Part shown: one piece after another, positions 6,452 through 62,299 of the stretch | How positions within the stretch are numbered: position 1 is the stretch's first letter | Layout of the letters: each line of letters starts with the position of its first letter | Source of the DNA: Hydrogenophilaceae bacterium | GTDB lineage: Bacteria > Pseudomonadota > Alphaproteobacteria > Caulobacterales > Aquidulcibacteraceae | DNA length: 64,000 nucleotides | Direction of reading: 5' to 3' | Assembly: GCA_013389015.1 (NCBI GenBank) | Contig: JACAEE010000156.1 | Span: forward strand, 58,302 to 122,301 | Notes under the pieces: generated by a model | What the model was told of the DNA's origin: nothing | The model's database searches: none | The model's input: the letters and a program-made list of their open reading frames with translations, nothing else | Made by a program: the position numbers and the translations under genes

Positions 6452-6463
6452 TTTCGGTCTGCT

Positions 6464-7795: not shown

Positions 7796-7941
7796 CGCGT
7801 CAGTCTGGATCAGCGGTGCTGCGAGGTCCACCGGCGCGGGAGCGGCCGGAAGTTCGCGGAGAGGAACAGGGATCGATTTGATCGATGTCAATGTCGCGCC
7901 GCGCCGCCGGGCGCAGCATTGTCCGCCGAGGAGCAAGATTC

Positions 7942-14663: not shown

Positions 14664-14681
14664 GACGGTGCTTTCTCCGTG

Positions 14682-15650: not shown

Positions 15651-15656
15651 GGGGCT

Positions 15657-18838: not shown

Positions 18839-18845
18839 CGCCGCC

Positions 18846-22822: not shown

Positions 22823-23022
22823 ATGAAGCGTCCGCTCCCACATGCTGGAAGCGTCTCGCCCATTTCCTGGCGACGCCACATGTTGCAACTCTTTCGAGGC
22901 GCACCGGCACACAGGCGCCGACTCGCGTGCGAGTTTCCTCACGCGCGTTGGTGTTAAGCGCTCAATTGGGGCAGCGAACGCCAGGTGATTCGGCGCTCCA
23001 AATCGGCTATACTCCGGGTTGC

Positions 23023-28010: not shown

Positions 28011-28013
28011 CGC

Positions 28014-31799: not shown

Positions 31800-34768
31800 C
31801 GCTGCCTCACTTCGACCATGACCACGCGTCCCACCGGCGAGGCGTTCAGCGTGTCGAAACCCATGCCAATCGGATTGTTGGCGAATGGAGGATCCTCGTC
31901 AGTGAGATTGCGGACGTCGAGCGTAATCTCTGTCCCCGCGCCGTCATCGCCGACCTGGAAGTGGCGTGAGATCCGCGCGTCGAACGTCGTCCACGATGAG
32001 ATGTCACGAGCCGGCGTGCTGAACGAGTCGCGGTAGTCGTCCGTGTATTGCATCGACAGCGCGCCACGCCACGCGCCGGTGTCGAGCGCGACGCCCGCAC
32101 GGGCGCGCCAATCCACCGGGTTGAGCATGGTATCGAGCACGTCGGCGCTCGCGAGCGACGGATTGTTCTGTCGCGAGAACTGCAGCAGGCCGCTTGCCGT
32201 GGCGAACACCGAAAGTTCGCCGAAGCCCGTGTCGAAGGCATAGGACGCGGAGAGGTCGACGCCGAGGACGCGCAGCGAGGCGAGGTTGGTTAGCCGCTCG
32301 TCCCAGATGACTTCAATCCCATCCGGCGGAATGACGCCGGATACATCGTCCGTCAGTCCTAGATAGAAGGCGATCTGATCGGGCGTTGGGTTGCGAATGA
32401 AATAGCCTTCGTATTGTTCGGGGTTCTGGAAGGCGTCGAGAATAAAGCCGGGGATTGCGATGCGGTTCGAGAAGGTAATGTCGAAATACGTGGCCGAGAG
32501 TCGGAATCCATCGAGCCAAGACGGCGCAAGTTCAAAGCCCGCAGTCCAAGTCTCGGCTTCTTCTGGTTCAAGCTCACGATTGGCGCCGAGAATTTGCAGG
32601 AGGCCGGTGGATCCGTTGGTGGCGTCAGGATCCAGGAATCCCGGAAGCGAACCGATAGTGGCTCCCGTGCCGCCCAGCATCTGGGCAAACTGCGGTGCTT
32701 TGAAAGACTCACCCCAAGTCGCTCGCAAAGTGAGATCCGTAAACGGTGTCCATTGCAGGCCGATCTTCGGCGTCGTTGCGTCGCCGAAGTCAGATGAGTC
32801 CTCGCGGCGTACGGAGAGCGACAAGGACACGCTGTCGAACACTGGCAAAAACGCCTCGGCATAAATCGCGTCGGTGGTGCGCTCGCCAGGCTCTTGGGTG
32901 AACGGATTGGTGATTAGGCCCGAACCAGAGGTCTCGGTTCGGTCGATGCTGAAGGTTTCGTCGCGTCGTTCGATACCCAGCGCGACACGCGCGCGACCGC
33001 CGGGCAAGTCGAACACACCGCCATCAGCGCGCAGTGCGTAACCCGTCAGCTCTGAATCGGTCTCGATGTGCTGGCGCATTGTGAGTGCCGTCAGCGCCGC
33101 GGCGGGCGTATCGCCGCCGTCGCCAAACGGGTTGAACGCTATTGAAGGATCGGAACTGGCAAGCGCTGCGCCGATCGCCCCAGAATCGGCGATGTTGGTG
33201 TTGTCCACCTCGTCGGCGTGAAAGCCGTAAGAGATGCTCGCCTCGACGCGCCAATCCCAGCGCAGCGCGAATTCCAGACCTGCCGCCGTGGCGATGGTGT
33301 CGGACTGTGTATCCGTCATCAGCGGACCGAGATCGTCGCCGAAGAAATAGGCGACGTAGATGTCGCCATCTCCGGCAAACAAGCCGTTCTGTTGACGATA
33401 GTAGTTCGTCTCGGGAACGGCGACGACACCGCCGAGCTGCGCCTTCTCGGCGTGAGCCTCGCGTTGTGACGCCAACACATCGACGAAGAGGCGGACGTTC
33501 GTATTGAAATCGTAGCTGAGCGAGCCAAACAGCGAATGGCTCTGCTGCTCCGGCAACAAGAAGGAGCCTTCATTGCCGTTTTGCAGATTGAGCACGCCGT
33601 TGAGCAGATCGCCTTCGCTCAGCGTAAGGCCGTCCTGACCGTCCGGAATTGCCAGTGTGACGGGCGCGCCGCCCACCAGAATGATGTTGCCGGGTGAAGC
33701 CGTGAAGCGGGAAAAGTTCGTGCCGCCGAACGGCGCGAGATCTGTGTTTGCGGCGTAATCGCGGTCTGAAGCAGAGAGCGCGTCGCGCTGGCGATACTCA
33801 TAACCGGCGATCAACGAGCCGCCCGACCAGTCCGCGCCCAGAACATGAGAAAAGCCGGTCTCATTCATGCCGTCGGCGACGCTGAAGCGAGCGCTCGTTT
33901 CGGGATGGTCGAGCGTGCGCCGAAGCAGGACGTTCACCACGCCGCCCACCGCGTCGCTGCCATACGTGGCCGATGCGCCGTCAGCGAGCACCTCGACGCG
34001 CTCAATCGCGGCCAAAGGGATGGCGGAGATATCGACGAAGTTGCCGAGGCCCGCTGGCGCGAGGCGGCGCCCGTTTAGCAGAGTAAGAGTTGCGTCGGAG
34101 CCCAAGCCGCGAAGATCGACGGTCGAACCCAAGGCGATGTTGTTGCCGGGCGCTGTTGAGTTGAGCTGCGTGAGTTCACCTTGGCTGCCTGGGAAAACCT
34201 GCGGGAGCGTTTGCAGCAGGTCTTGAATGGTCGTGCGACCGCTCTCTTCAATGTCGCCGCGATCAAGTGTGAGCAGGTTGGCGCCCGCAGGCACGGCCCC
34301 GCGAATGCGCGTGCCGGTGACGACGATCTCTTCTTCGCTTTCGCTGACCGCGGCGCTAGATGTCTGCGTGGTTTCAGCGCCGCTCGCGGCGCCCTCGCGC
34401 TGGGGGCGGGAAGATTGCTCCTGTGCGAGCACCAGATTGCCGCCGTTGATGCGGCCATTGTAGCCCGAGTGCGCGAGCAGGAGATCGAGCGCCTGCTGGC
34501 GCGTGTACGACCCGCGCAGGGCAGGGGAGGAGAGGCCGCGCAGGTCGTCTGAGAAGTAGAGCGCGTTCACGCGCGCCTGCCGCGCGTATTCGCTCAAGGC
34601 GCTGCTGAGAGGCTGGGCGGCGATGTCGAACTCAATGCGCTCATCACTGATTTGCTGCAGGTCTTGCGCATGCGCCGGTTCGGCGGCGACGGCGCCCATC
34701 GCGCTGAGAATAAGAGCGGTCGCCAGCTTTCGCCGGCGGTCATGCCGTTTCGTCGTCTTGCCCTTCAT
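31793..34768 (-). CDS. TonB-dependent receptor with N-terminal STN (secretin/TonB signalling) domain
   Basis: FDIAAQPLSSALSEYARQARVNALYFSDDLRGL (STN), EEEIVVTGTRIRG (TonB box/plug), C-terminal beta-barrel; overlaps isopeptidase start. Confidence 0.93.
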   Translation of the reverse strand: MKGKTTKRHDRRRKLATALILSAMGAVAAEPAHAQDLQQISDERIEFDIAAQPLSSALSEYARQARVNALYFSDDLRGLSSPALRGSYTRQQALDLLLAHSGYNGRINGGNLVLAQEQSSRPQREGAASGAETTQTSSAAVSESEEEIVVTGTRIRGAVPAGANLLTLDRGDIEESGRTTIQDLLQTLPQVFPGSQGELTQLNSTAPGNNIALGSTVDLRGLGSDATLTLLNGRRLAPAGLGNFVDISAIPLAAIERVEVLADGASATYGSDAVGGVVNVLLRRTLDHPETSARFSVADGMNETGFSHVLGADWSGGSLIAGYEYRQRDALSASDRDYAANTDLAPFGGTNFSRFTASPGNIILVGGAPVTLAIPDGQDGLTLSEGDLLNGVLNLQNGNEGSFLLPEQQSHSLFGSLSYDFNTNVRLFVDVLASQREAHAEKAQLGGVVAVPETNYYRQQNGLFAGDGDIYVAYFFGDDLGPLMTDTQSDTIATAAGLEFALRWDWRVEASISYGFHADEVDNTNIADSGAIGAALASSDPSIAFNPFGDGGDTPAAALTALTMRQHIETDSELTGYALRADGGVFDLPGGRARVALGIERRDETFSIDRTETSGSGLITNPFTQEPGERTTDAIYAEAFLPVFDSVSLSLSVRREDSSDFGDATTPKIGLQWTPFTDLTLRATWGESFKAPQFAQMLGGTGATIGSLPGFLDPDATNGSTGLLQILGANRELEPEEAETWTAGFELAPSWLDGFRLSATYFDITFSNRIAIPGFILDAFQNPEQYEGYFIRNPTPDQIAFYLGLTDDVSGVIPPDGIEVIWDERLTNLASLRVLGVDLSASYAFDTGFGELSVFATASGLLQFSRQNNPSLASADVLDTMLNPVDWRARAGVALDTGAWRGALSMQYTDDYRDSFSTPARDISSWTTFDARISRHFQVGDDGAGTEITLDVRNLTDEDPPFANNPIGMGFDTLNASPVGRVVMVEVRQRW

Positions 34769-34945
34769 GTTTCCCCCTTCCGCGCTTGAGCGCGTGTTGT
34801 CGGGAGAAAGACACTTCAGTCCAAAAAGTGCGCCACGCATGCGCGAACAATGTTTGCGGAAGAGGCGCTAGCCTGCGGACCTGCGCTCTCCGATGATCGC
34901 AACCCTCACTGGCCTACAGAAGGCTAAGCCCCTAAGTTTTTCCGC

Positions 34946-35644
34946 ATGTGCAATCGATACGCCGCCGACATCCGCAAAGCCGGGAGGGAAAGAGCTTATT
35001 GGGGCTTCGACGAATGGAGCGAGACCCGCATCAATCCTGTGCTCGGCAATGCCGTTCTCGAGGTCTTTCCCAAGAGCCAGGCGCCGATCATTCGGAGCCG
35101 ATGGATCGACGGCAAGCGGACGGATCAACTTGAGTGGCAAACCATGCGTTGGGGTTTGCCGGGCCCGCCGCAATTCGGGGCCATGCCGGTCACCAACATC
35201 CGCAATTTGAAGAGCCCGCATTGGCGCAGCGTCTTGGGCGTGGCGCATCGATGCCTTGTGCCGTTCACGGCGTTCAGTGAGTACGAAGATGCGTCGCCGA
35301 AAGGAAAGAAGCAGATTCGGTGGTTTGCACCGCCGGAGCGGGGCGTTGCGTACTTCGCCGGGCTCTACAGAACCTGGTGCGGCGATTACGGCTCCAAGAA
35401 GGAGCCGAATGAAGGCGACCACGTGCTGTTCGCGTTCTTGACCACCGAGGCGAACGAGCTTGTTCGGCCCGTGCACGCCAAGGCGATGCCGGTTGTGCTA
35501 ACCGACCAGGCCGGCTGCGAGGAATGGCTGAACGCGACGCCCGAGGAGACCGAAGCGATCCAAGCACGCGTGCTGCCGGCGCACGCACTTGAAATCGTCG
35601 GCGACGATGAAGCGGCGCAATATGTTGGCGGCTACATCAAGTAG
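34946..35644 (+). CDS. SRAP/YedK-family (SOS response-associated peptidase) protein
   Basis: MCNRYA (catalytic Cys2), HRCLVPFTAFSEY, FAFLTTEANELVRPVHAKAMPVVL. Confidence 0.9.
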   Translation: MCNRYAADIRKAGRERAYWGFDEWSETRINPVLGNAVLEVFPKSQAPIIRSRWIDGKRTDQLEWQTMRWGLPGPPQFGAMPVTNIRNLKSPHWRSVLGVAHRCLVPFTAFSEYEDASPKGKKQIRWFAPPERGVAYFAGLYRTWCGDYGSKKEPNEGDHVLFAFLTTEANELVRPVHAKAMPVVLTDQAGCEEWLNATPEETEAIQARVLPAHALEIVGDDEAAQYVGGYIK

Positions 35645-35729
35645 CGCTCGCGAAGTCCCTTGCCGCATTTTGCGGCAAGCTCCCCAGCGGCGGCCGTTTC
35701 GGATATGATCCGAGGAGGAGGCGATTCCG

Positions 35730-37310
35730 CTGCCGCTGACGATTTTCATAAGTAGCGTTCAAGACGAGTTCGTTGAGGAACGGCGGGCGATCAAGGCCTA
35801 TATCGAGGGCGACGCGTTGTTCCGGCGCCAATTCGAAGTATTCCTGTTCGAGGACGAGCCGGCGCAGGACCGGGGCGCGCCAGACATCTATCTCGCCAAG
35901 GCCGGCGATTGCGATGTCTATGTCGCCTTGCTGGGCATCGCATATGGATTCGAGGATGACGAAGGGGTCTCGCCGACCGAGCGGGAGTTCGATCGCGCTG
36001 TTGCGCGCCGGCGCCACCGGCTCGCTTTCGTCAAAAACATTTCCGATCACTACCGGCATCCGAAGATGGTGCAGTTCATCCGCAAGGTCGAAGGTCAGGT
36101 CACCCGGCGCCGGTTTGTCGGCGCCGCCGATCTGACGGCGGAACTCTATCGCAGCCTGATCAAGATCCTTGAAGATGAAGGCGTGCTGGCGGCGCGCCCG
36201 TTCGATGCTTCGCAAAATCAATTGTCGTTCGACCTCATCGACGCGGACCGCGTGGAAGAGTTCGCAAAACTCGCAGCCAGCAAGCGGCAGTTGCGGTTGA
36301 AGAAGACCGGCGGCGCCAAGGAAACGTTGGCGCAACTCGATCTCTTCGATGAGAACGCGCTGACTAATGCCGCAGTGCTGCTATTTTCGGACGCCTCGAA
36401 GCGTGTCGCCAGGGGAGCCGAGGTGAATTGCCAACACTATGCGGGGACGGAGGCGTTGCGGCCTTCCTTGTCGCACAAAGTGTTCGGCGGCTCGGTGTTC
36501 GACCAGGCCGACGCGGCCGTCGCGTTCGTGATGGACCGCCTGGCGCTCTCGGTCGGCGTGCGGGACGCTGGCCCGCAAGTGGACACAAGTGCGGAGATCC
36601 CGCATGCCGCAGTGGCGGAAGCCATCATCAATGCGGTGGCGCACCGCAATTATCGCTCGGCGTCGGCGGTGCAGGTGACGGTTTTCGCCGATCGGGTCGA
36701 GGTCTCCAATCCCGGCGAGCTGCCGCGTGGATTGACGCCTGAGCAATTGAGGGGACCGCATTCGTCCATTCCCCAAAACCCGCTGCTCGCTGAGGCGCTC
36801 TTTCTGTCGGGCTATATCGAGAAGTCCGGCACCGGCACGACGGAGATGATCCGCCAGTGCAAGGCCGCGGGTCTGCCGGAGCCGACATTCGAGCAACGCG
36901 GCGATCAGTGGACGGTGACGCTCTGGCGCGATTGGCTGACGGACGCCTATATCGCCAGCGCTTCGCTGAACGCGCGTCAGATCGCGGCGCTCGCGGCCGT
37001 CAAAGCGAAAGGCGCCATCGACAACACCGCCTACCAGGATTTGACCGGCGCTTCGAAGCGCACCGCGACGCGCGATCTGGGCGAGCTCGTCGAGAAAGGC
37101 ATCTTGGTGCGCACCGGCGGCGACATGGGGCGTGGCGCCGGTTATCAAAAAGCCAAGGCGCGCCCTGACCCTGCCGAGCGGCGAGCGGCGACGCCGAAGC
37201 GGCCCGCGGCGAAAAGGGGTCAAAAAGGGGCCAAAGGGGCCAAGACCGCCGCAAAAACAAGGGGCCATAAAGGGGCCACGACGGCGAAGAAGGCGAAAAA
37301 GCCCAAGTAA
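35730..37310 (+). CDS. DUF4062 N-terminus + AlbA_2/HATPase-like ATP-binding protein with Lys/Ala-rich tail; non-ATG start
   Basis: Frame extends upstream of the track's TTG start to encode LPLTIFISSVQDEFVEERRAIKAYI; later EIPHAAVAEAIINAVAHRNYRSASAVQVTVFADRVEVSNPGELP. Confidence 0.75.
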   Translation: MPLTIFISSVQDEFVEERRAIKAYIEGDALFRRQFEVFLFEDEPAQDRGAPDIYLAKAGDCDVYVALLGIAYGFEDDEGVSPTEREFDRAVARRRHRLAFVKNISDHYRHPKMVQFIRKVEGQVTRRRFVGAADLTAELYRSLIKILEDEGVLAARPFDASQNQLSFDLIDADRVEEFAKLAASKRQLRLKKTGGAKETLAQLDLFDENALTNAAVLLFSDASKRVARGAEVNCQHYAGTEALRPSLSHKVFGGSVFDQADAAVAFVMDRLALSVGVRDAGPQVDTSAEIPHAAVAEAIINAVAHRNYRSASAVQVTVFADRVEVSNPGELPRGLTPEQLRGPHSSIPQNPLLAEALFLSGYIEKSGTGTTEMIRQCKAAGLPEPTFEQRGDQWTVTLWRDWLTDAYIASASLNARQIAALAAVKAKGAIDNTAYQDLTGASKRTATRDLGELVEKGILVRTGGDMGRGAGYQKAKARPDPAERRAATPKRPAAKRGQKGAKGAKTAAKTRGHKGATTAKKAKKPK

Positions 37311-37377
37311 ACCGCCGGTTTTGTGTGACCCCTTTTTCGCTGGCGGTTCCGCCGAGAGGCTGAGCAGGATCAAAGCG

Positions 37378-37758
37378 TCATCGCCCCGCCGCTGTGATCA
37401 GCCAGCCCCCGGCGAGTATTGCAGCAGCGAGCCAGATCGCGACGATGACAGCGGCCGCTACTCTGCTTACGGGGCGTTCCGAGATTGCCTCCGCCCGCGC
37501 ACGGCAGTCAGCCATCACTGCGTTTGGAATGAGTCGAATGACCATCCAAAGCCCGAGCGGCGCCAGCACCACATCATCCAGATAACCAACAATTGGGATG
37601 AAATCGGGAATGAGGTCGATGGGCGACAGCGCGTAAGCCACAACGACGAGCCCAACCGTCTTTGCGTACCAAGGCGTGCGGGCGTCGCGAACGGCCAGAT
37701 AGGTGGCCAGCGTATCTCGCTTGATCGCCCGCGCCCATTGTCTAACGCCGGACCACAT
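37378..37758 (-). CDS. YkvA/DUF1232 family membrane protein
   Basis: AVRDARTPWYAKTVGLVVVAYALSPIDLIPDFIPIVGYLDDVVL. Confidence 0.88.
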   Translation of the reverse strand: MWSGVRQWARAIKRDTLATYLAVRDARTPWYAKTVGLVVVAYALSPIDLIPDFIPIVGYLDDVVLAPLGLWMVIRLIPNAVMADCRARAEAISERPVSRVAAAVIVAIWLAAAILAGGWLITAAGR

Positions 37759-37815
37759 GCTCCGGGTTTAGCGCCCGGTGGCGATAGGCGCCAAAACTAC
37801 AAGCGCAGGGGCTTG

Positions 37816-38802
37816 TTATGAGCTTCGCGACAGCACGATGCGGCGGTCGCCTTCACGATGCGCTTTGAGATTGAGGTTCGATGAGACCAGGGCAATGAAG
37901 GCTTCTGGATCAGCGGCCACATAACCGCCGATGCGCATCTCGCCCAGTGCGGGGTCGGCGAGTTCGAAAGTCCAGCCGGTTTGGCGCGAGACTTCGGCGA
38001 TCGCTTCGTTGAGCGTCTCGCCGTCGAACGCCAGCATGTTGTCGCGCCACGCCAGACGGCGCGGAATCGCTTCCGCCGCGATCTCGACCAGCTCGGCGGC
38101 GCCATCCCTCAAGACGATCTCCTGATTGGCGCCGGCGGTGACGCTGTTGCGGCGCGCGCTGAAGAAGCCTCTATCAACCGCTCCAGACACAGAACCACGC
38201 AAGACCGTTGTGCGCACTTCGCCTTCGCTGATGCGTACGACGAAGGAGGTTCCGAGAACGGTGATGTCGCCCTCGGGGGTGCGCACCACGAATGGGCGCT
38301 CGGGATCGTGCGCAATGTCGAAGAGGGCGTAGCCACGGGCGAGGTCGACGCTGCGCTCGGTGTTGCTGATCGCGATCGCGGCTTCGCCGGCGCCTGAGAG
38401 CGTGATGGTGGAGCCGTCGGCGAGGGTGATGGTGCGCACTTCGGCCGGGGCCGTGGTGTAGTGTTCGGAAGGCGCGAAAGGGGTCGGCGCACGGGTGAAC
38501 CAGACGCCCGCGCCGATCGCCAGCAGTGCGCACGCGGCGATGGCGGCAGCGGGAAGCCAGCGGCGGCGGCTTGGTGTCGGGCCGGTGTCGTTGGCGGCGG
38601 CGCGGCCCTTGAGATGCTGCAGCGATTGAACCGCACCCCACGCGCGCTCCAGCTTGGCGTAGGCGGGTGGATGGTCGGGATCGGAATCGAGCCAGGCCTG
38701 GAAATCTTGGCGGTCGCGCTCTGTCGCATCGTGCGCCTTGATGCGGACGATCCAGCCGCTGGCTTCGCGCTCGGCTCGTGTCAGGGTTTGCCGGGTAGGC
38801 AT
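37816..38802 (-). CDS. FecR-family anti-sigma factor
   Basis: TRAEREASGWIVRIKAHDATERDRQDFQAWLDSDPDHPPAYAKLERAW, TM, FecR domain, C-terminal STN-like. Confidence 0.92.
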   Translation of the reverse strand: MPTRQTLTRAEREASGWIVRIKAHDATERDRQDFQAWLDSDPDHPPAYAKLERAWGAVQSLQHLKGRAAANDTGPTPSRRRWLPAAAIAACALLAIGAGVWFTRAPTPFAPSEHYTTAPAEVRTITLADGSTITLSGAGEAAIAISNTERSVDLARGYALFDIAHDPERPFVVRTPEGDITVLGTSFVVRISEGEVRTTVLRGSVSGAVDRGFFSARRNSVTAGANQEIVLRDGAAELVEIAAEAIPRRLAWRDNMLAFDGETLNEAIAEVSRQTGWTFELADPALGEMRIGGYVAADPEAFIALVSSNLNLKAHREGDRRIVLSRSS

Positions 38803-38815
38803 TGTGCGTCGGAGC

Positions 38816-39316
38816 TTAGGTGTCGGGTTCGGCGAGGGCGAGCGCCAACTGCGCTAGGGCGGTCTCGATGTAGCGCTGGAGCGTGCGGCGCGAGACGCCG
38901 AGGCGCCGCGCGGCTTCGGGTTGCGTGAGGCCCTCGATGATGTGCAGCAGCAGGGCTTCGCGAAGATGCGGCTCCAAAGCCGCGAGCGCTGCTTCAGCGG
39001 CTGAGGCCTGCTCAGAGGCGATCAGGTCGGCTTCGGGATCGGCGGTGGCTGTGAGGGCGAGGGTCTCAATCCCGGCTGAAGCGTCGGTCTTGTGATTAGC
39101 CTGACGCCTCAGATCGTTGAGCGCCAGATTGCGGGCCGTGGTCATGAGATAGGCCTGGGGATTGGCGATCTCTCCGGTCTTTGCAGCACAGAGCTTGGCG
39201 AAGGCGTCCTGGGAGATGTCTTCAGCCGAGATGCGGGGACCGAAGCGGCGGAGGAAACGCATCAAGCGAGGGGCTTCTTCTTCAAAGAGGTTGGCCCAGT
39301 CGAGGGTGGAGCTCAT
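38816..39316 (-). CDS. ECF (FecI-type) RNA polymerase sigma factor
   Basis: LMRFLRRFGPRISAEDISQDAFAKL ... ALLLHIIEGLTQPEAARRLGVSRRTLQRYIETALAQLA. Confidence 0.92.
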   Translation of the reverse strand: MSSTLDWANLFEEEAPRLMRFLRRFGPRISAEDISQDAFAKLCAAKTGEIANPQAYLMTTARNLALNDLRRQANHKTDASAGIETLALTATADPEADLIASEQASAAEAALAALEPHLREALLLHIIEGLTQPEAARRLGVSRRTLQRYIETALAQLALALAEPDT

Positions 39317-40854: not shown

Positions 40855-42006
40855 CTATGCCGCAAATGAGCTACGAATGTCTCCCATGCGCGTAATCTCC
40901 CAAGCTTGGTAGCTTGCTGGCGCGCTCCAAAACGCCGTCCATGCTTCGTTCAGTAGCTCGCGAACTGGCGCCTTCGTGTTGGGAGCGGCCAATCGCACGC
41001 CAATCCCTTCGACGCCGGTGGTCGCACAGGCGACAACGGTCGCGATGAGGCGGTCGGAATAGCAGTTCAGATATTCGGGCGACGGGCGATAGCCCATAGT
41101 GGTGACGAATTCTTTCCAGGCCTTGTCAATGGTCGCGGCTTCTTGCGCGTATGCATTGGTCGAGCGCAGCGCCGTCAGTAGGGCGCGCATTCTGGCGTCG
41201 TCGGCGGGATGGGTAGTTTCAAACATCTCCGGCGTGGCGAACGGATCTCCGCCCCGTTTGATGCAGAGATGATAGTGCGACCATGCGAACGCTGGCCCGG
41301 CCGTGAGAACGCCGAACAAATCGCAGAAGAATTCCTCCATCCAATATTTGGCCCAGCAGGTTTGCCAAAGCTGCAGCTGATAGATGCGGGCGTCTTGGTG
41401 GCGTAAGCGGTCGGCGGCGGTAACCGCGCCCTGGAAGTGAGACACCATGGCAAAGAGGCTGCTGGTGTAGGCGCTTTTGTACGCCTCGAGCTCCGGCATA
41501 TCGAGATTGCGCGGCCGATGCAGAGGATGGCAAAGCTCGTGATAGATGTCGGGTAAGTGCAGCAGGAACCGGCTTTCAATCAGCGGCAGGCAAAGCAGAT
41601 TGAACTCGGGGTAGATATGAAAGTAGTCCTGCGACATCTGGCTGATCGCTGGCGTGACCAGGGGATAGGCGATCTCTTGGCAGATGTCGGTGATGAGACG
41701 GTTCAGAAAGTCGTCGTCCGCGCTTTTGCGATTGAGGGCGAAGACGCCGACGCCTTCGATCGTATTCAAGAGTTCCACAGCGCGTTTGAAAGTGCGGATG
41801 CGAATGGGAGTTTGAAGTGCGCTATCAACGATGCGTTCGCCAGCGAGCGCGGAAAGGTTAGCGTCCGCTTGCTCAAGGTGGGTCAAGCAAATCTGTCTGA
41901 GGCCGTCATATTCGCGGGCATAGCCGGGGCGCTGGACGATACTGCGTAGGGCGCGTGTTCGTTCGCGCGCCTGGCCTATGGCGCCTTGTAGATAGGCTTC
42001 AATCAT
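40855..42006 (-). CDS. predicted HExxH zinc metallopeptidase-like protein in Argonaute operon
   Basis: YHELCHPLHR (HExxH), WMEEFFCDLFG (possible third ligand), THPADDARMRALL; 4-nt overlap with upstream gene. Confidence 0.6.
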   Translation of the reverse strand: MIEAYLQGAIGQARERTRALRSIVQRPGYAREYDGLRQICLTHLEQADANLSALAGERIVDSALQTPIRIRTFKRAVELLNTIEGVGVFALNRKSADDDFLNRLITDICQEIAYPLVTPAISQMSQDYFHIYPEFNLLCLPLIESRFLLHLPDIYHELCHPLHRPRNLDMPELEAYKSAYTSSLFAMVSHFQGAVTAADRLRHQDARIYQLQLWQTCWAKYWMEEFFCDLFGVLTAGPAFAWSHYHLCIKRGGDPFATPEMFETTHPADDARMRALLTALRSTNAYAQEAATIDKAWKEFVTTMGYRPSPEYLNCYSDRLIATVVACATTGVEGIGVRLAAPNTKAPVRELLNEAWTAFWSAPASYQAWEITRMGDIRSSFAA

Positions 42007-42371
42007 CGACGCGCCCGAAGGCGGTTCGCCACGTCGGTGCGTTCCTGCTCAAGGCCCGCGGCCAAGATTTCGAGTTGGCGCTGATCGGACGCGTCGATCG
42101 GGCCAGCGAGGAGGCGCCGCCCCAGCTTTTCCAAATCAAGCAGCGGCTCACCGGTGCGCGTGCGCAGCAGGCTGTCGAACATCAGCGCTTCATAGGACTG
42201 AGCGCTTCGCCCATGATCGCTTGCGTCCACAAGCAGTTGGCCGAGATGGGTTTGGTCGGCGTTTGGGACCGCCGCTCCATCTTGGCGAACGCGCTGGATG
42301 ACCGCGTCAATCAGAGAAGCGAATTCCTCGACATTGGCATAAACGCTGGAAAGCAGGCTGAGGTCGCTCAT
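42003..42371 (-). CDS. small helical protein of Argonaute operon, unknown function
   Basis: 122 aa ORF, ATGA-type overlaps on both sides. Confidence 0.6.
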   Translation of the reverse strand: MSDLSLLSSVYANVEEFASLIDAVIQRVRQDGAAVPNADQTHLGQLLVDASDHGRSAQSYEALMFDSLLRTRTGEPLLDLEKLGRRLLAGPIDASDQRQLEILAAGLEQERTDVANRLRARR

Positions 42372-44734
42372 CTCGACGTCTCCGCTACATTGTCGTTGCC
42401 GTATTCGATTTCGTCCTCGTTCACGTCCTCAGCTTCCTCGTAGAGGCTGCGGTCACAGAGTTTGATTGAGATCGGCAGCCGCATGGCGCCTTCGGGCCTG
42501 CCCCAAGTCAGGCAGCTCAAGTCGAAAACGTCCGCTAGGCATTTTTCAATCGACATGGTGCCATGGACGCGCCGGACGTGAAGGGGGTTGGCGGTCCCGG
42601 GGATAGAGAACGGGCGACCCGTTGTGCAGACGAAGCCTTCGGTCTCGCCGACCTGAAGCCAACTGCCGACGACTGGATTTTGCACCGCGAGTTCGTTTGA
42701 GCCGCTCGCTTGCTTCACGCTGAACATGCGCAATGGGGCGGGCGCAGATTTGGAGATTTCCAAAATGGTGAGGCGCCAATCGGATGCGATGAAGCCTTCT
42801 TGTTGGAGCGCTTCGCATGCCTCTTTGAGACCCTCGATTTCGCTCGGCCAGGCGCGTCCATCGCGGTGGATGACAATCTCTTTCGGGGCGGACTGGAGGT
42901 ATCTCCGCTCCTTGCGAATAAGGTCGGCGACAATTTGCGAAACTTGGTTTTTCAGCAGTTGCTCCTTCTGGCGCGAAGCCTTGGTGGAGAAGCGGATGAT
43001 GCGTCCGCCGTCGGCGATGAGCGTAAAGGCGGCAGTGCTGTTCTTGACGTCGATGCCAACCACCACCTCGGCGTTGAGTGCGGTATCGAGGACGAATGGC
43101 CATTTGCCGTTGGTCAGCAGGATTTTATTGATGGCGACATTGCGGATGTAGCCGCGGATGCGTCGCTGCTCGGAATCCTTCACGACATACTGGGTTTGAC
43201 CATTCCGGCGCAAAGCGATGTAGCCCCGGTTGATCATGTCGGTATGAATGACCGATGCCGTCAATTGGCGCTGGCTAGCGAAATCCTTGACCACCCAGGC
43301 TGCAAGTTGATCGGCGGCGCGGGCGCGCTTTTCATAGCGGTGCACGATCACTAGCGCGAAGCCCGGTTGGATGCGCTCGGCGTCCATGGCTTCTCTGATG
43401 GCGCGCGATTGGCTGGCGAAATTGCGAGTGCCGTTCAGGTCGTCATAGACGACCACTTCTGGATTGTAGTCGCCGCCAGCGGGGTAAATCGCCTTCAGCT
43501 GGGCGCGGAGATCGGCGAGGAATTGCGGGCCGCTGCTATCGTGAACGCTTCTCGGCATGACAACGAGCTGGCGCGCCAAAGTGCTGCGTTCGTAAAAGCC
43601 CGCCGCGCTGTTGTTCAGCATGTTTAGGCGCTGGCGGCCATATTCAGCGACGGCGTCAACGTATGGCCCGTCTTCGCGCGGCTCAAGCGTTCTGTCGCCG
43701 CCATAGAGAAGGCGAGGGACGATGAGGAGCTTCGGCTTGGCCAAGCCCGCTTGTGGCGCAACGCGAAGTTCGACATCGCCAATGCGAAAAGACCCAAGGA
43801 ACATCTTGGCCAGACGATTGAGTTGGCGATGACGATCGTCGGGTTGGATGATGGTATGCGGCTGGCTCTGGGCGCCAGCGCGGCCATGTGTGTCTTCGAT
43901 CAGATGACAAAGTGCGGCCGGGGCGGAGCGTTGTGTCGGCCCGTTGGTGCGATAGAGTATGGCCGCGCCGTCGGGCGACAAGCGCGCGATGGCCGCTGCA
44001 ACCGGCTTAGGCGATTTGGAGTGAAGATAGTCGCCGAGGCTGACAATTGCCCCGTCTAGCGGAATTGACGGCTGGCCCACCGCATAGTCGGAAAGGCCGG
44101 ACAGGCTCACTTCGAACCAATCGTCGCCCATCTTATAGAGGCATGATCTTCCCTTCAGCCGGTTGGCTTCGTCTCGCGTGATCGACGGCGAAAGAGCGGC
44201 GCGTGAGATGAGTTTGCGACGCAAATCTATGACAACGCCGAACCCACCATCGGGATGAGGAACAACGCGTGGCGTGAAGCCCTCATAGAGGTCTAGGTTG
44301 CCGAGCGCTCTGTCGGGACGCCTGAAGAAGAACGGTTTGCCTGCGCCAGGCTGCCACAGCCGCGCATCGCGGAAGAGCGGATTTTGCATAGCAAATTGCA
44401 GAAACCGAACGCGGACATCGTCCAACTCGGGCTGGTCGCCATTGAAGGCGAGTTCGATGGTTTCGTTGGTGGGCCGTAGCGACGCCACTGCGCCGACAAG
44501 CAGTAGCTGTTCGGGCGGGTCAACACCAAGCGGTGACAGCAGAAAGGCCTCGCCGTCGCGATGGTGGACCGTGATCGGCGCGCGCAGCTGGTAACTTAAG
44601 TTGCGAATGATCCGTTGCAGGTTGCCGTAATAATCAAGGCCATCGGCGTTGAGGCCGACGATCTTGAACAACCGATAGGTGGTCGAGAGAGCGTCCAGCC
44701 CTTCGATCTTGAAGCAATTGGTTTCAATGGGCAT
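42368..44734 (-). CDS. prokaryotic Argonaute (PIWI-domain) protein
   Basis: PIWI motifs VVVGIDVKNSTAAFTLIADGG, KEIVIHRDGRAWPSEIEGL, and C-terminal HGTMSIEKCLADVFDLSCLTWGRPEGAMRLPISIKLCDRSLYEEA. Confidence 0.85.
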   Translation of the reverse strand: MPIETNCFKIEGLDALSTTYRLFKIVGLNADGLDYYGNLQRIIRNLSYQLRAPITVHHRDGEAFLLSPLGVDPPEQLLLVGAVASLRPTNETIELAFNGDQPELDDVRVRFLQFAMQNPLFRDARLWQPGAGKPFFFRRPDRALGNLDLYEGFTPRVVPHPDGGFGVVIDLRRKLISRAALSPSITRDEANRLKGRSCLYKMGDDWFEVSLSGLSDYAVGQPSIPLDGAIVSLGDYLHSKSPKPVAAAIARLSPDGAAILYRTNGPTQRSAPAALCHLIEDTHGRAGAQSQPHTIIQPDDRHRQLNRLAKMFLGSFRIGDVELRVAPQAGLAKPKLLIVPRLLYGGDRTLEPREDGPYVDAVAEYGRQRLNMLNNSAAGFYERSTLARQLVVMPRSVHDSSGPQFLADLRAQLKAIYPAGGDYNPEVVVYDDLNGTRNFASQSRAIREAMDAERIQPGFALVIVHRYEKRARAADQLAAWVVKDFASQRQLTASVIHTDMINRGYIALRRNGQTQYVVKDSEQRRIRGYIRNVAINKILLTNGKWPFVLDTALNAEVVVGIDVKNSTAAFTLIADGGRIIRFSTKASRQKEQLLKNQVSQIVADLIRKERRYLQSAPKEIVIHRDGRAWPSEIEGLKEACEALQQEGFIASDWRLTILEISKSAPAPLRMFSVKQASGSNELAVQNPVVGSWLQVGETEGFVCTTGRPFSIPGTANPLHVRRVHGTMSIEKCLADVFDLSCLTWGRPEGAMRLPISIKLCDRSLYEEAEDVNEDEIEYGNDNVAETSR

Positions 44735-45662
44735 GTGCGCTCTCCCAGCAAGGTGCGCGGAACGCACAGCTCTGGCAGCTTTCAGGATGGATGGCCGGCA
44801 TGAAGTCTGCGGCGTTGAGCTCTTCGTATTTCTTGCCTTCGGTGAGGCACGCAATCTCGTAAGCCGAGCTCATCATGTATTCTTCTGTTTCCTCGATTTG
44901 AGCGGCATCGAGGCGGTGTTCGCGCACCAGATTGGTCAGCAACTGCGCTTCCAGCAGCAAGATCTCGTCAGGCTTAGCGCTAAAGTCTGGGGGGAAATCG
45001 TTGTGCGACGAGCGTGCCAAAGCGATCGCGTAGATTGCAAGCTGCAGCCAAGCGTCGTTGTCGCCAAAGGCATGCACTTTCCAATCGACGATGACGGGAG
45101 GCGTGTCGTCCAAAAACGCGATCGCGTCGGGGTAGGAAATGACAGTGACCCCATCCATGAGATCAAATTGCAGAGCGCGTTGCGCAATGACGTGGTCGGC
45201 GGCCTTCAGCGGCGCTTTGACGGCGTCCAGGGCGTAGAGGTTGGCGAGAGCCTGAGCGATCTCCTCCCACGCTACGTTCAGTTCGTCGTCCGTCGGCGGT
45301 GCGCCATATTCCATGCCATGCAGGAGACAGAAGTCGTCGCCGTGGTCCGAGGGCTTGGTGTCGAAACTGGCGATCGAATGATTTCGTGCGAACAGGAGTT
45401 GGCGGTCAAAGAGGGCGCGCGCTTGCGCTTTGGCCTCGCGCAGCATCACGGGTGCGCCGCGATTGATGCCTGGGATGACGGTGTTGGAAATGACTTGATC
45501 GACGATCCGGCCCCGCCAGGCGCTTACGCTCTGCAGCTTGCTGAGGAGATTGATGCGACGCCGCACCGGATCGCGCGCCTTCGCGCTGGCGACCATGTTC
45601 TTGTAGAACCACTGCCGCTGGCATTTCTTAAAGCTGCGGCTTGCTGAATATGACCATCGCAT
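44724..45662 (-). CDS. Cas4/RecB-like PD-(D/E)XK nuclease with Cys motif
   Basis: SASRSFKKCQRQWFYKNMV, YPDAIAFLDDTPPVIVDWKVHAFGDNDAWLQLAIYAIAL, C-terminal CQSCAFRAPC. Confidence 0.8.
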   Translation of the reverse strand: MRWSYSASRSFKKCQRQWFYKNMVASAKARDPVRRRINLLSKLQSVSAWRGRIVDQVISNTVIPGINRGAPVMLREAKAQARALFDRQLLFARNHSIASFDTKPSDHGDDFCLLHGMEYGAPPTDDELNVAWEEIAQALANLYALDAVKAPLKAADHVIAQRALQFDLMDGVTVISYPDAIAFLDDTPPVIVDWKVHAFGDNDAWLQLAIYAIALARSSHNDFPPDFSAKPDEILLLEAQLLTNLVREHRLDAAQIEETEEYMMSSAYEIACLTEGKKYEELNAADFMPAIHPESCQSCAFRAPCWESAHAH

Positions 45663-46006
45663 CAGTCGCCTCGTTTGCGCGACCGAATGAACTGAAGATA
45701 CTCGACGAGAGCTGCTTCCTCGTCGTCGGTTAGGGGCCCGATACGTGCTGCTTTGTTCGCCGTGGCCCGATCTGAAGCGTTCGGCAACGGAAAGCCGGCG
45801 AGCTCCATCAAGAGTTCATACGAAACGCTATAGCAAAGCGCGAGCTTGTGCAGATTCTGCGGGGACGGCGATTTGATTTTGCCGTTCTCCAATTGACTCA
45901 AATAGGCGTTGGAAATGCCCGTCTCGCTCTCGACAGCCCGCAGTGTTTTTCCGGCGGCGGTGCGCGCCTTGCCCAAAAATTCGCCCAGGGATTGCAGTGC
46001 ACTCAT
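45662..46006 (-). CDS. XRE-family helix-turn-helix regulator of the Argonaute operon
   Basis: LGEFLGKARTAAGKTLRAVESETGISNAYLSQLENGKIKSPSPQNLHKLALCYSVSYELLMELAG. Confidence 0.88.
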   Translation of the reverse strand: MSALQSLGEFLGKARTAAGKTLRAVESETGISNAYLSQLENGKIKSPSPQNLHKLALCYSVSYELLMELAGFPLPNASDRATANKAARIGPLTDDEEAALVEYLQFIRSRKRGD

Positions 46007-46017
46007 TCTGCTTGGTA

Positions 46018-46042
46018 TAGCAAGCGTTGCTAATAATAGCAA
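46018..46042. promoter_or_regulatory. candidate XRE operator: three alternating half-sites
   Basis: TAGCAA-gcg-TTGCTA-ataa-TAGCAA, 12 nt upstream of the XRE start. Confidence 0.55.
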
Positions 46043-46177
46043 GCAAAATATAAAAGCATATGAATCAGGGGGATACGGGAGGCTCCTCGACTGAGCTGGG
46101 GAATCTCTGCCTGTGATTCGGTGTGCAGGGGTGGCGAGACGGGTGCGTGTTTCAGGTGAATCTGTTAAGTTCTGAGT

Positions 46178-47230
46178 ATGTCCGGTTTTGTTCAGACACG
46201 AAGCAGTCGCGGGCTCTTGGCGCTCACGGGTCTACGCCAAGTGGGACCGGCGACGGCCGAGCGGCTTGCCAACCGTTTTGCGACTTTGGAAGAGGTCGCC
46301 GAGGCGCCGGTTTCCCAGCTGCAGGGCGTCGCGACAGCGGCGGCGATCGAAAGCATACGTCAGCGGGGCAGCATAACCGAATCTTCGCGCCGTGCTGAGG
46401 CTGTGTTGGAGGCGTCTGAGCGCCACGGCGTACGGGTATTGTCAGTCTTCGACGAGGACTACCCGAAGGCGCTGCAGAGGCTAACCGACCGCCCGCCCGT
46501 GCTCTACGTGAAGGGACGGCTGCGCGACGTCGAAAGATGCGTGGCCTGTATCGGTACGAGAGAGCCTTCCGAGTTTGGAGAGAAGGTCACTGATCGCATC
46601 GTGGGCCAACTGGTCGAAGCGCGATGGATCATCGTGAGCGGGCTTGCGACTGGGGTCGACACAATTGCCCATCGCGGCGCGGTCAGCCGGCGCGGTCGCA
46701 CAATTGCAATTCTGGCCGGTGGCTTGGAGAAAGTTTATCCTGCGCACAACGCGAAGCTTGCTGAAGAAATCCTAGCGGATGGCGGGGCGCTCATCAGCGA
46801 ACATCCGATTGGCGTGCCATCGGCGCCGCGCAACCTGGTGCAACGTGATCGATTGCAGAGCGGGATGTCGGTCGCCACGATCGTGATGCAGACCGATATC
46901 AAGGGCGGATCGATGCATACGGTTCGATATACGTTGTCACAGGACCGGTTGTTGTTTGCACCGGTCCCACAGGGTCGTCACGCTGAGCACCCAAAGAGCC
47001 AGGGCATCCTCGCATTGGCGCGTCTCACAGGTCCCGAATTGGCGAAAGCGCTTGGTGCTGAAGGCCCATATGAACGTTTGCTGGTCACCAAATATGCGCG
47101 CAGGCCAGTTGCGATCCCGCTCGCAAGTCGAGACGATTATTCCTCTATGCTAGCGACGTTGGAACGGCGCTTAGCCGAAGGCTGGCAGTCCGAGAGCACT
47201 GGCGGATCTGAACAGACCTCGATGTTGTAA
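46178..47230 (+). CDS. DprA/Smf-family DNA-processing-like protein
   Basis: VACIGTREPSEFGEKVTDRIVGQLVEARWIIVSGLATGVDTIAHRGAVSRRGRTIAILAGGLEKVYPAHN. Confidence 0.9.
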   Translation: MSGFVQTRSSRGLLALTGLRQVGPATAERLANRFATLEEVAEAPVSQLQGVATAAAIESIRQRGSITESSRRAEAVLEASERHGVRVLSVFDEDYPKALQRLTDRPPVLYVKGRLRDVERCVACIGTREPSEFGEKVTDRIVGQLVEARWIIVSGLATGVDTIAHRGAVSRRGRTIAILAGGLEKVYPAHNAKLAEEILADGGALISEHPIGVPSAPRNLVQRDRLQSGMSVATIVMQTDIKGGSMHTVRYTLSQDRLLFAPVPQGRHAEHPKSQGILALARLTGPELAKALGAEGPYERLLVTKYARRPVAIPLASRDDYSSMLATLERRLAEGWQSESTGGSEQTSML

Positions 47231-48462
47231 TGCCGAAGGCGTTCTTGTTCGACCTGGACATGACGCTTGTGGACAGCTCAGCGCTGGCAGATCTCCGGCG
47301 TCAGCGCATGTGGACGCAGGTCGCCGCGAGCATGCACCTCATACGTCCATTCAAGGTCGAAGCCGGCGCCGCCGCCCACGAACTGCCTGGCAAGCTGAAA
47401 GCACGCGATATCCCGATCGCTGTCGTGACATCTTCGCCGCGTCGCTACGCCGAGGCGGTCATAAAGGCGTTCGATATCGAGTGCGATGCGCTCGTCACGT
47501 ATGAAGACACGACGGAGCATAAGCCCGATCCCGCGCCAATTGTCGAAGGTTTGAAACAGATCGGCGTGAAGGCGTCGCGCGACGTCTTCTACGTTGGCGA
47601 CGACGGCATCGATGTTGAGGCCGCATATCACGCCGGCGTATCGAGCATTGGCGTCGGTTGGGGCATCGAATCCCTGTTCGGGATGTCCTCGACCGCTCCA
47701 GACATCCTTGTCGACGAGCCCAAGCAATTGTTGCGGGCCATTGAACTCGACCAATTGTCTTACATCGGTGAGCGCTCGGCTGCGGGTGAGAAATATTCGT
47801 CGCACTGGGGCTCGGTCTTGCACTGCGACGATCATCAAAACGAGGTCTATGCGCTTGGCCGCTACATGACCGCTGGAGATCCGCGTCATGCCGGCCATCA
47901 ATTGTCGCGCGCAATTCTGTCGCTGAAGAGTGGGGACAAGCACGCGGACATGTTTGGTAAGGCCCTCGGCAAGGCGATTGGGCTAATCGAAACAGAGGCA
48001 GCCTTCATTGTGCCGGTTCCGCCAAAACCGTCGCAGACGCGCAACCGGTTTGAGGCGGTGCTCGCCGCTGCGGAGGCGCATCTTCCAGATGACATGGAAA
48101 TCGATCTGGAGGGCCTGAAGTGTGTGAAGGAGGTTGAGGGATACAAGGCGATGGGCCCGGGTGAGCGTGCGGCCGCTATTCGCGGAGCCTTCGAGACCAA
48201 GTGGGATTGGGACGGAGCAGATGTCATCCTCATCGATGATGTGTATACGACCGGGGAAACGATCGCCGAGTGCGCGCGCATTCTGAAGAAGCAGGGGGCC
48301 GGGACAGTACAGACGGTGGTGTTGGGCAAAGATCAACGCGCCTTTGTTCGCAAACGCTGCGAGTGCGGTCGGACTATGAAGATCCGCAAGAACCGCCAAG
48401 GCGTGCAGTTTTGGGGGTGTTCAGGCTATCCCACATACTGCCAGCGCACTGAGGATTTGTAG
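47230..48462 (+). CDS. HAD hydrolase fused to phosphoribosyltransferase with C-terminal topoisomerase-type Zn ribbon
   Basis: MPKAFLFDLDMTLVDSS (HAD), DVILIDDVYTTGETIAEC (PRTase), CECGRTMKIRKNRQGVQFWGCSGYPTYC; start overlaps DprA stop by 1 nt. Confidence 0.88.
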   Translation: MPKAFLFDLDMTLVDSSALADLRRQRMWTQVAASMHLIRPFKVEAGAAAHELPGKLKARDIPIAVVTSSPRRYAEAVIKAFDIECDALVTYEDTTEHKPDPAPIVEGLKQIGVKASRDVFYVGDDGIDVEAAYHAGVSSIGVGWGIESLFGMSSTAPDILVDEPKQLLRAIELDQLSYIGERSAAGEKYSSHWGSVLHCDDHQNEVYALGRYMTAGDPRHAGHQLSRAILSLKSGDKHADMFGKALGKAIGLIETEAAFIVPVPPKPSQTRNRFEAVLAAAEAHLPDDMEIDLEGLKCVKEVEGYKAMGPGERAAAIRGAFETKWDWDGADVILIDDVYTTGETIAECARILKKQGAGTVQTVVLGKDQRAFVRKRCECGRTMKIRKNRQGVQFWGCSGYPTYCQRTEDL

Positions 48463-54238: not shown

Positions 54239-54721
54239 TTAACTTGCTGCGTAACGGGCAAAGACCCGCGTCGTCCCCCCATCTCCAAACGCGATGACTT
54301 CGAATGCATCGCGCCGGCCGTCGCTGCGCTCCATGCCGGGCGAGCCCGCCGGCATTCCTGGAACCGCCAGCCCGCTCACGCCTGCGGGGCGCTGTTCAAT
54401 CAAGCGAATGATGTCGCGGGCCGGCACATGACCTTCAATCGCAAAGCCCGCCACCGACATCGTGTGACACGACGCCAATGCCTGCGGCACGCCAAGCCTT
54501 TGCTTAACCCCCGCCATGTCGTTCGTTTCCGTCACCTGGACCGCAAAGGCGCCGCTGGCGCGCAAGTGCTCGACCCAAGCAAGGCAGCAGCCGCAATGAG
54601 GATCGCGATAGACTTCCGCCGCATAAGCTTGCTGTGCGGCCGCTGGTCCCGACGCCAGCGTCGCTGCTGTTGCGAACAAGATCACGCGTCGAGACAGCGT
54701 GGGAGGCCGTGTAGAATCCAT
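54239..54721 (-). CDS. DUF411 metal-associated protein
   Basis: AEVYRDPHCGCCLAWVEHLRASGAFAVQVTETNDMAGVKQRLGVPQALASCHTMSVAGFAIEGHVPARDI. Confidence 0.9.
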   Translation of the reverse strand: MDSTRPPTLSRRVILFATAATLASGPAAAQQAYAAEVYRDPHCGCCLAWVEHLRASGAFAVQVTETNDMAGVKQRLGVPQALASCHTMSVAGFAIEGHVPARDIIRLIEQRPAGVSGLAVPGMPAGSPGMERSDGRRDAFEVIAFGDGGTTRVFARYAAS

Positions 54722-54725
54722 TCTC

Positions 54726-55310
54726 TTATTGCCCTCCGTGATCGCTGGCGTCGCGCAGAATGGCGACGCCGCCCTTGAGTGAAATGGCGGCGACCGCGGC
54801 GCCGACGACCAGATCGGGCCATTGTTGGCCAGTCCACGCCACCGCCGCGCCGGCAAGCAAGATGCCGCCATTGCCGATAAAATCATTGAAGCTGAAAGTG
54901 CGCGCCGCCTTTATGTTGGGGTCGGATGTTTTCAGCGACTGCATGAGCCGCAGGCAGACGAGATTTATGATCGCTGCAACGATCGCCAGCGTCATCATCG
55001 TGGCGCCGATCGGCTCAGAACCGAATATGTAGCGCCGGGCCGTATCGCCCAACACGCCGATGGCGAAGACGATGAGCAGCGCTCCTGAAACGGTCGCGGC
55101 GGCGCGCTTCCAGCGCGCGCCCGCGCCGACGGCGAACAGGCTTAGGGCATAGACGACACTGTCGGAGGCATTGTCGAGTGCGTTAGCGAGGAGGCTGCTT
55201 GAGTCCGCGGTCCAACCGCCAACGGCTAGACCTGCGGCAAGCAGCACGTTCAAGCCGAAGGTCAGCCCGAGTATGCGCCGCTGACGCGCCGGTGAAGGCT
55301 CGCCCGTCAT
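54726..55310 (-). CDS. cation diffusion facilitator (CDF)-family transporter
   Basis: ILGLTFGLNVLLAAGLAVGGWTADSSSLLANALDNASDSVVYALSLF. Confidence 0.85.
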   Translation of the reverse strand: MTGEPSPARQRRILGLTFGLNVLLAAGLAVGGWTADSSSLLANALDNASDSVVYALSLFAVGAGARWKRAAATVSGALLIVFAIGVLGDTARRYIFGSEPIGATMMTLAIVAAIINLVCLRLMQSLKTSDPNIKAARTFSFNDFIGNGGILLAGAAVAWTGQQWPDLVVGAAVAAISLKGGVAILRDASDHGGQ

Positions 55311-56017
55311 GCCTTGCGCGCCAGCGTCATCAGCGTCCAGCCGAATCCCGCCGAACCCAGGGTGGTTTCCAATCTTCGCCCGGACAGCGCGCGCATCACG
55401 CGCCGTCCCCAGCGGCCGGCGATAAGGCGCATCGGGCCCTTGTTGGCGATCGGCGTCATCGTGCGCATCGCTTCGACGGTGAAGTGTGGCGCTAGCAGTT
55501 CACTCAATTCGTTGCGGTCGAACCAGCGCCTGAGATGTCCGGCCTGGGTCGGCGCAACCTTATTGTGCCGCTCAAGCACCGGGCGGTTCTGCGTCGCCAA
55601 AATGAGCACGCCTCCGCGGCGCAGCAGGCGCGCGATCTTGGCGATAAAGGCCGGTTGATCGCCGACATGAGACAAGACTTCGAGCGTCACCACCACGTCG
55701 AATCCATGCTCGGGAAAATCGAGCGTCATGAAGTCGCCGTTGATGAACTCGACGCCGGCTATGCGCTCGGCGGCGCGCCTCAGCACATCCGGCGACAGAT
55801 CCGTAGCGGTTACGCGGCCATAGGGCTTGAGCCAGGGGCAAAGCCAACCCGCGCCGCAGCCGACTTCGAGGATGTCGAGATCGAACCGGCCGGTTGCGCT
55901 CAGCCAGCCGAGAGCGGCCTCTTTCTGGTCGTGCGAAATGTCTGACTGCGCATGCTCGCGGTTCTCCGCGTTCCACGCATCCCAATAGGAGGCCTGTTCG
56001 GCAATTGGATCGCTCAT
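55307..56017 (-). CDS. UbiG-like class I SAM-dependent methyltransferase
   Basis: FDLDILEVGCGAGWLCPWLKPYGRVTATDLSPDVLRRAAERIAGVEFINGDF. Confidence 0.88.
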   Translation of the reverse strand: MSDPIAEQASYWDAWNAENREHAQSDISHDQKEAALGWLSATGRFDLDILEVGCGAGWLCPWLKPYGRVTATDLSPDVLRRAAERIAGVEFINGDFMTLDFPEHGFDVVVTLEVLSHVGDQPAFIAKIARLLRRGGVLILATQNRPVLERHNKVAPTQAGHLRRWFDRNELSELLAPHFTVEAMRTMTPIANKGPMRLIAGRWGRRVMRALSGRRLETTLGSAGFGWTLMTLARKA

Positions 56018-58458: not shown

Positions 58459-58988
58459 GCCGCCGTCGCCTGCTTGATGCGCAGCGCTGTGTTCATTGCG
58501 TTTACCGTAGCTGCAATGCGCAGCGCCGCTTGGACACGCTCAAGCGTGACGCCGCGTTTGTGCAGCTCAGATTCGTGAACATTGAGGCAGGCCCCGCATT
58601 GAGCCATCGCAGATATGGCGAAAGCCCAAAGCTCGAAATCGATCTTGTCGACATCGGTTTGGGAGAGCGCCGTCATCGACAGGTTGGCGGGCGCGCCGCG
58701 ATAATCATGGTTGTCGAGCAGGTTGAGCGCGCCGTAATAGACCGTGTTCATCGCCATGAGGGTTGCAGCCAGTTTGGCGGCGTTGCGCGCTTTGTCGGAG
58801 AGGAGCGGGCCAGCCGCACTCTCCATATGTCTGATCAGCGTTGGATTATCGGTGGCGTACGCGCACGCCAGCAGGCAGCCCCACCTCTGTTGATCGCTGA
58901 GCAAGGTCTCGGTGATGATTGCGTCGAGATTGCGCTTTTGGTCCCAGGCAAAATCTGGGAGGGCCTCGCGCAGTGCGTCGATGGGCAT
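58455..58988 (-). CDS. carboxymuconolactone decarboxylase/AhpD-like protein
   Basis: FELWAFAISAMAQCGACLNVHESELHKRGVTLERVQAALRIAATVNA (CxxC...H). Confidence 0.85.
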   Translation of the reverse strand: MPIDALREALPDFAWDQKRNLDAIITETLLSDQQRWGCLLACAYATDNPTLIRHMESAAGPLLSDKARNAAKLAATLMAMNTVYYGALNLLDNHDYRGAPANLSMTALSQTDVDKIDFELWAFAISAMAQCGACLNVHESELHKRGVTLERVQAALRIAATVNAMNTALRIKQATAA

Positions 58989-59005
58989 GGTGTCTATCTC
59001 CCTTC

Positions 59006-62260: not shown

Positions 62261-62299
62261 GACGAGGTATCCGAACCGGTTTGCACGGGGAGGCGGCGA

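Follow-up and report, generated by a model that had tools for sequence, protein, structure and literature searches.

A PliAgo-group Argonaute operon with a conserved small helical protein and a predicted gluzincin-like HExxH protein in a Hydrogenophilaceae bacterium

The 64,000-nt stretch of DNA analysed here (the window), part of a 172-contig assembly, carries five genes on its minus strand between positions 40855 and 46006, each confirmed as an open reading frame at its coordinates. They encode an XRE-family helix-turn-helix (HTH) regulator of 114 aa (45662-46006; Pfam HTH_3, E 1.9e-10), a Cas4-like PD-(D/E)XK nuclease of 312 aa (44724-45662), a long prokaryotic Argonaute (pAgo) of 788 aa (42368-44734), a small all-helical protein of 122 aa (42003-42371) and an HExxH, gluzincin-like protein of 383 aa (40855-42006). 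Neighbouring genes overlap throughout: the XRE and nuclease genes have a single base in common at 45662 (TGATG), the nuclease and pAgo genes overlap by 11 nt (44724-44734), and 4-nt ATGA overlaps join the pAgo gene to the small gene (42368-42371) and the small gene to the HExxH gene (42003-42006). The initial annotation had described five overlapping minus-strand genes, and their coordinates as well as all four overlaps were reproduced. Start/stop overlaps at all four junctions suggest that the genes likely form one translationally coupled operon, and because the gene order is shared by 23 loci, the arrangement is not one of chance.

Upstream of the XRE gene, the palindromic motif GCTTG-N7-WAGC occurs on the minus strand in two putative operator copies, the downstream one (GCTTGCTATACCAAGC, 46010-46025) immediately 5' of the ATG and the upstream one (GCTTGCTATTATTAGC, 46029-46044) inside a larger palindrome, TTGCTATTATTAGCAA. 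Since both copies sit just 5' of the ATG at 46006, this start is favoured over an upstream TTG. A close homologue of the regulator, of the same family, is present in 12 loci, and at the XRE start of 11 of these the motif is found again, often overlapping a TTGACA-like element, and the remaining one (L013) comes close to matching it. It is absent from all ten loci in which the regulator is a sigma pair or a distant XRE or was not recognised, and its background elsewhere is 0.0085 per 560 nt; as the sequences used for the count are those that had revealed the motif, this background and the ten negative loci serve as controls. The window XRE is a putative and, on this pattern, probable autorepressor. 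Other loci have a different regulator gene or carry the core operon with no regulator recognised (L004, L016, L020): in L005, L006 and L094-L096 a pair made up of a sigma-70-family gene and a second, small conserved gene takes the place of XRE (L005 3860-4998, L006 3876-5023, and L094-L096). The HExxH gene and its active site are retained whatever the regulator, be it XRE, a sigma pair or none that was recognised.

The pAgo (PADLOC pAgo_II, E 8e-300; Pfam Piwi, E 2.9e-9) aligns over residues 1-787 with residues 1-788 of 7r8f (E 1.7e-200), in an end-to-end match to the solved structures 7r8f-7r8k, the first of which is that of PliAgo (PMC9360449, partial text). With this full-length alignment the earlier PIWI/Argonaute assignment is safe, and the catalytic Asp positions that had been noted as retained belong to a whole DEDD tetrad (D562, E591, D625 and D761, equivalent to D563/E592/D626/D762 of PliAgo), intact by strict column in 16 of 17 pAgo homologues. 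As in the PliAgo type of guide 5'-phosphate pocket, R466, H497 and Y529 are retained and the canonical KQK residues are absent, the neutral residues A478, V482 and T541 being found instead; the position of Ser501 in the PliAgo pocket is occupied by Met. By these features the window pAgo is a full-length relative of PliAgo, predicted to be of the PliAgo-group type, a DNA-guided and RNA-cleaving (D-R) kind of Argonaute. Because members of the PliAgo group cleave RNA with the help of DNA guides (PMC9360449), DNA-guided RNA cleavage is the activity expected by homology.

The nuclease gene product is assigned to PADLOC family PDLC02406 (Aga_Cas4-like_Nuc, E 2e-120) and also matches Pfam PD-(D/E)XK (5.6e-11), in keeping with its initial description as a Cas4-like nuclease beside a pAgo. 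Residues D179, D193, K195 and Q207, together with C14, C296, C299 and C305, are invariant in all 17 homologues, and judged by its profile matches the protein is a member of an already known, pAgo-associated Cas4-like family. The family profile reaches PDB entries 9iab and 9iac (E ~2e-4), which we take to stem from a study of a cyanobacterial pAgo-Cas4 pair. The Cas4-family nuclease in that study reportedly processes guides, and guide processing by the window enzyme is treated as a lead. The cyanobacterial system (PDB 9iab, 9iac, 9iad) resembles that of the window in its Cas4-like partner, but its nuclease and its pAgo are both distant from those found here (9iad, E 7e-4).

At the 3' end of the operon, the HExxH protein carries HELCH at residues 156-160 and the signature HExxH-x(55-64)-ExxxD-x(32-40)-xPxxxxR, which is kept in 24 of 24 homologues; the residue before the Pro is His in 22 of them, Pro in L010 and Tyr in L020. 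Among the 215 other long ORFs of the loci the signature does not occur, two extra matches being duplicate copies of HExxH genes already counted, and HExxH plus ExxCD is kept in all 18 aligned homologues. An AlphaFold2 model is confident and mostly helical (pLDDT 94.6, pTM 0.91); the structure predictions used 14 of the 18 alignment rows, the plasmid-collection rows being left out. No family match was obtained in Pfam, NCBIfam or PADLOC, and comparisons to the PDB by sequence and profile, and by Foldseek to the PDB and to viral models, returned nothing meaningful. The signature has the layout of M48-type gluzincins, in which zinc is bound by two His and one Glu and HPxxxxR follows. Like the window protein, both M48 and M78 (ImmA/IrrE) combine HExxH with a Glu located downstream on the following helix, and M48 has in addition an HPxxxxR element similar to that of the HExxH protein; for the predicted fold of the window protein, no solved chain gave a match with a meaningful E-value. 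Profile-profile comparison aligned M48 over 17 columns only, at the HPxxxxR element (probability 7%), and M78 over 26 columns only, at the Glu helix (84%). Membership of M48 and of M78 was considered and rejected, neither Pfam PF01435 nor PF06114 giving a match at E up to 1. Because the profile matches are short and no solved chain matches meaningfully, the protein is labelled gluzincin-like and placed in neither family. An HExxH with a downstream Glu, as is characteristic of gluzincins, is present by sequence in all 24 homologues, and on its motifs the protein is a gluzincin-like member of a new family; as there is no solved relative, its putative identity as a peptidase is read from the layout of these motifs.

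The small protein is predicted by AlphaFold2 to be an all-helical bundle (pLDDT 89.5), gave no match in the family and fold searches, and is less conserved than the other three core proteins. Its gene occupies the same slot in all core loci, immediately 5' of the HExxH gene with the gene ends overlapping or nearly abutting, an order of small protein then enzyme that would suit an inhibitor or an adaptor.

The order Cas4-like nuclease - pAgo - small protein - HExxH protein was found in 23 core loci from several phyla, beside which there is one variant (L086). Loci beyond those on plasmids were obtained by scanning genome contigs with a four-sequence pAgo alignment, which favours the PliAgo group, and profile searches showed the order in the window itself, in five plasmids and eleven more genomes, and in a distant locus from Opitutaceae. 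L015 is counted as core though it is without the nuclease gene, the contig ending there; the contig of L019 ends in mid-pAgo and its genome has no HExxH match; and L021, which is no more than a short fragment, and L022, whose outlying pAgo has no HExxH gene in the available stretch, are uncounted. Most core loci came from a pAgo query and so show whether an HExxH gene accompanies a pAgo; in the plasmid and Bacteroidota searches the association was examined in both directions. By tblastn against 72,556 plasmid records, the pAgo and the HExxH protein each gave five matches, in identical records, and the same records were returned when the search was repeated with pAgo and HExxH queries from Spirosoma. 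Among 349 Bacteroidota genomes the HExxH profile matched six, one of them the previously found L014, and the pAgo profile matched the same six, the two genes being adjacent in each; one other pAgo match in this sample was weak (E 2e-7) and in a 501-aa frame. The small gene is in place even in L097, the most distant Bacteroidota locus, with a weak profile match (E 0.018). Closer to the window, it alone was matched by the HExxH profile in 399 genomes of its phylum and by the pAgo profile in 395 genomes of its class. Viral contigs scanned with both alignments contained no relatives, and a phage search gave one weak PIWI match and none for HExxH.

The variant L086 (8354-12089), in a Binatia metagenome-assembled genome, consists of a remote HExxH homologue beside a convergent, remote pAgo, next to which neither the Cas4-like nuclease gene nor the small gene was recognised. 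The same assembly also contains a core operon. Across the homologues, identities range from 17 to 61% over several phyla, with the gene order fixed and the motifs invariant, and the distance matrices of the genes agree (r = 0.96 for pAgo against HExxH protein), as expected for joint inheritance. The initial annotation had allowed for the outer genes not being conserved with this pAgo clade; when this was examined, both proved strictly conserved. The small and HExxH genes belong to the pAgo unit, which is well supported by these observations. An explanation of the pair as functionless passengers carried with the pAgo, in line with the fact that functional data on them were not found in open-access text, is very improbable: both genes are strictly retained in a fixed order, and their motifs do not vary, at such identities in several phyla, and no intact locus of the pAgo clade was seen without them.

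Type IV transfer genes, encoding TrbI, CagX, TrbL/VirB6, VirB4-type, VirB11-type and coupling proteins, lie at 11990-22942 of the window, and the earlier placement of the operon on an integrative and conjugative element is supported, as regards a conjugative element, by this VirB-type gene set at about 12-23 kb. Relatives of the operon were found on conjugative plasmids. Divergent from the operon, at 46178-48462 on the plus strand, is a ShosTA-like pair, consisting of a DprA-like gene (PADLOC ShosA, E 1e-74) and, after it, a gene for a HAD-phosphoribosyltransferase (ShosT-like, E 2.5e-7). The transfer genes and defence-type neighbours would suit the operon as mobile defence cargo, a setting that is not in itself proof of defence. 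Elsewhere in the window, the region 27366-39316 contains transglutaminase-like and asparagine-synthase-like genes, a prolyl-oligopeptidase-like protein, a TonB receptor, FecR and an ECF sigma factor, and looks like a lasso-peptide cluster, and metal-resistance-type genes are located at 54239-63262 on the minus strand (DUF411, cation efflux, P-type ATPase, AcrB-type pump and HlyD-type fusion protein). In the Hassallia locus (L016), TnsB-, TnsC- and TniQ-like genes were recognised by eye at 4913-8004, directly upstream of the Cas4-like nuclease-pAgo operon, which may there be Tn7-like cargo. In two Bacteroidota plasmids a multiubiquitin - ThiF - DUF6527 set adjoins the pAgo operon (L003 10220-12399, L006 1071-3484).

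Operons of the PliAgo group with the same gene composition were described in 2022, the Cas4-like nuclease and an HTH or sigma gene being named (PMC9360449, partial text). PliAgo and RslAgo have in common with the window the pAgo clade, DEDD, the guide pocket, the Cas4-like nuclease and the HTH regulator, as far as the partial text of the same paper goes, and the Runella plasmid of RslAgo carries the same five genes. Neither the small gene nor the HExxH gene is named in that part of its text, though Figure 1b of the paper may show them; in the open-access text of PMC6299218 and PMC2743648, Cas4-like partners are mentioned and the word 'protease' has no match. PADLOC already lists pAgo plus Cas4-like nuclease, as argonaute class II. 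The D-R pAgos of the PnyAgo group have sigma-70 operons (PMC9360449), and L005, L006 and L094-L096 likewise have a sigma gene, together with the four-gene core of the window; these loci differ from the window in having a sigma pair and not XRE, and the pAgos of L005 and L006 have His and Lys at two sites where PliAgo has neutral residues. The proposal of a new system thus holds in part: the pAgo group, the Cas4-like nuclease and the HTH regulator were already described (PMC9360449, partial text), while the obligate small/HExxH pair appears to be uncharacterised as far as open-access text shows. The window operon is thus an additional PliAgo-group operon, and with the obligate HExxH/small pair the group is a form of pAgo system for which no description was found in open-access text.

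Taken as a whole, the operon may be, with a probability of roughly 0.4, an autoregulated, DNA-guided and RNA-targeting Argonaute immune module with the gluzincin-like protein as a second output. XRE would keep expression low until induction, the Cas4-like nuclease would process invader DNA into short DNA guides, and the pAgo would load them and cleave matching transcripts, the latter two steps being modelled on the biochemistry of relatives. From the anatomy only, the small helical protein may tether the predicted HExxH metallopeptidase or hold it in check, and the pAgo, once it engages its target, may license the enzyme to cut cellular or invader protein. The anatomy of the operon is well supported; a protease output is what we infer from the intact motif set retained in every locus, whatever the regulator. 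As the pAgo is itself catalytic, a second effector would not strictly be needed. A more specific version, possible though held tentatively, is a DNA-guided, RNA-activated protease, in which recognition of invader transcripts by the pAgo would switch on the metallopeptidase via the small helical protein as adaptor. Craspase is a protease-coupled CRISPR effector in which guided RNA recognition is linked to a protease; it would work alike if the best explanation holds, but the window has a predicted DNA guide, an Argonaute and an HExxH enzyme, and no sequence relation is claimed.

Second in rank, and unlikely, is a regulatory role for the HExxH protein, as a protease that turns the operon on by cleaving XRE or the sigma partner, much as ImmA reportedly cleaves ImmR in ICEBs1; immunity would be left to the pAgo and the nuclease. 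The pairing of the HExxH protein with a close XRE in 12 loci, 11 of them with the conserved operator, would suit such a role, as would the short M78 profile match at the Glu-helix region (26 columns, 84%). However, the HExxH protein and its active site persist both in the sigma-pair loci (L005, L006, L094-L096) and in those without a recognised regulator (L004, L016, L020), and it is because of this retention in the absence of a recognised XRE that the regulatory role is ranked second; it also leaves the small protein unexplained. Slightly less likely still, the small and HExxH proteins would be an inhibitor and its enzyme, a toxin-antitoxin-like abortive-infection arm set free by a disturbance of the host or the pAgo and not by guide-dependent activation. 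The small gene directly 5' of the HExxH gene in all core loci, overlapping or nearly abutting it, and the fast-evolving helical bundle that it encodes agree with this, but the pair was never seen apart from an Argonaute in the plasmids or the Bacteroidota sample, and the remote HExxH gene of L086 has no recognised small partner. Quite improbable is a metal enzyme other than a protease, serving for example in protein modification or in nucleic-acid processing for guide production or release: the protein matches no peptidase family and no solved fold, and not every HExxH enzyme is a peptidase (PMC12636437), yet HExxH - ExxxD - xPxxxxR, present in 24 of 24, is the layout of gluzincin peptidases as judged from family knowledge.

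According to their discoverers, D-R Argonautes are the only programmable nucleases reported to use a DNA guide against an RNA target, and their cellular function is a question posed by the same authors (PMC9360449). With a dedicated HExxH protein, a small protein and an operator, this cellular role becomes directly testable, and work with the pAgo alone omits part of the conserved system. The small and HExxH partners suggest that the system does more than cut RNA. If the more specific version is true, an RNA-activated protease of this kind would be the Argonaute counterpart of the protease-coupled CRISPR systems, built from unrelated parts.
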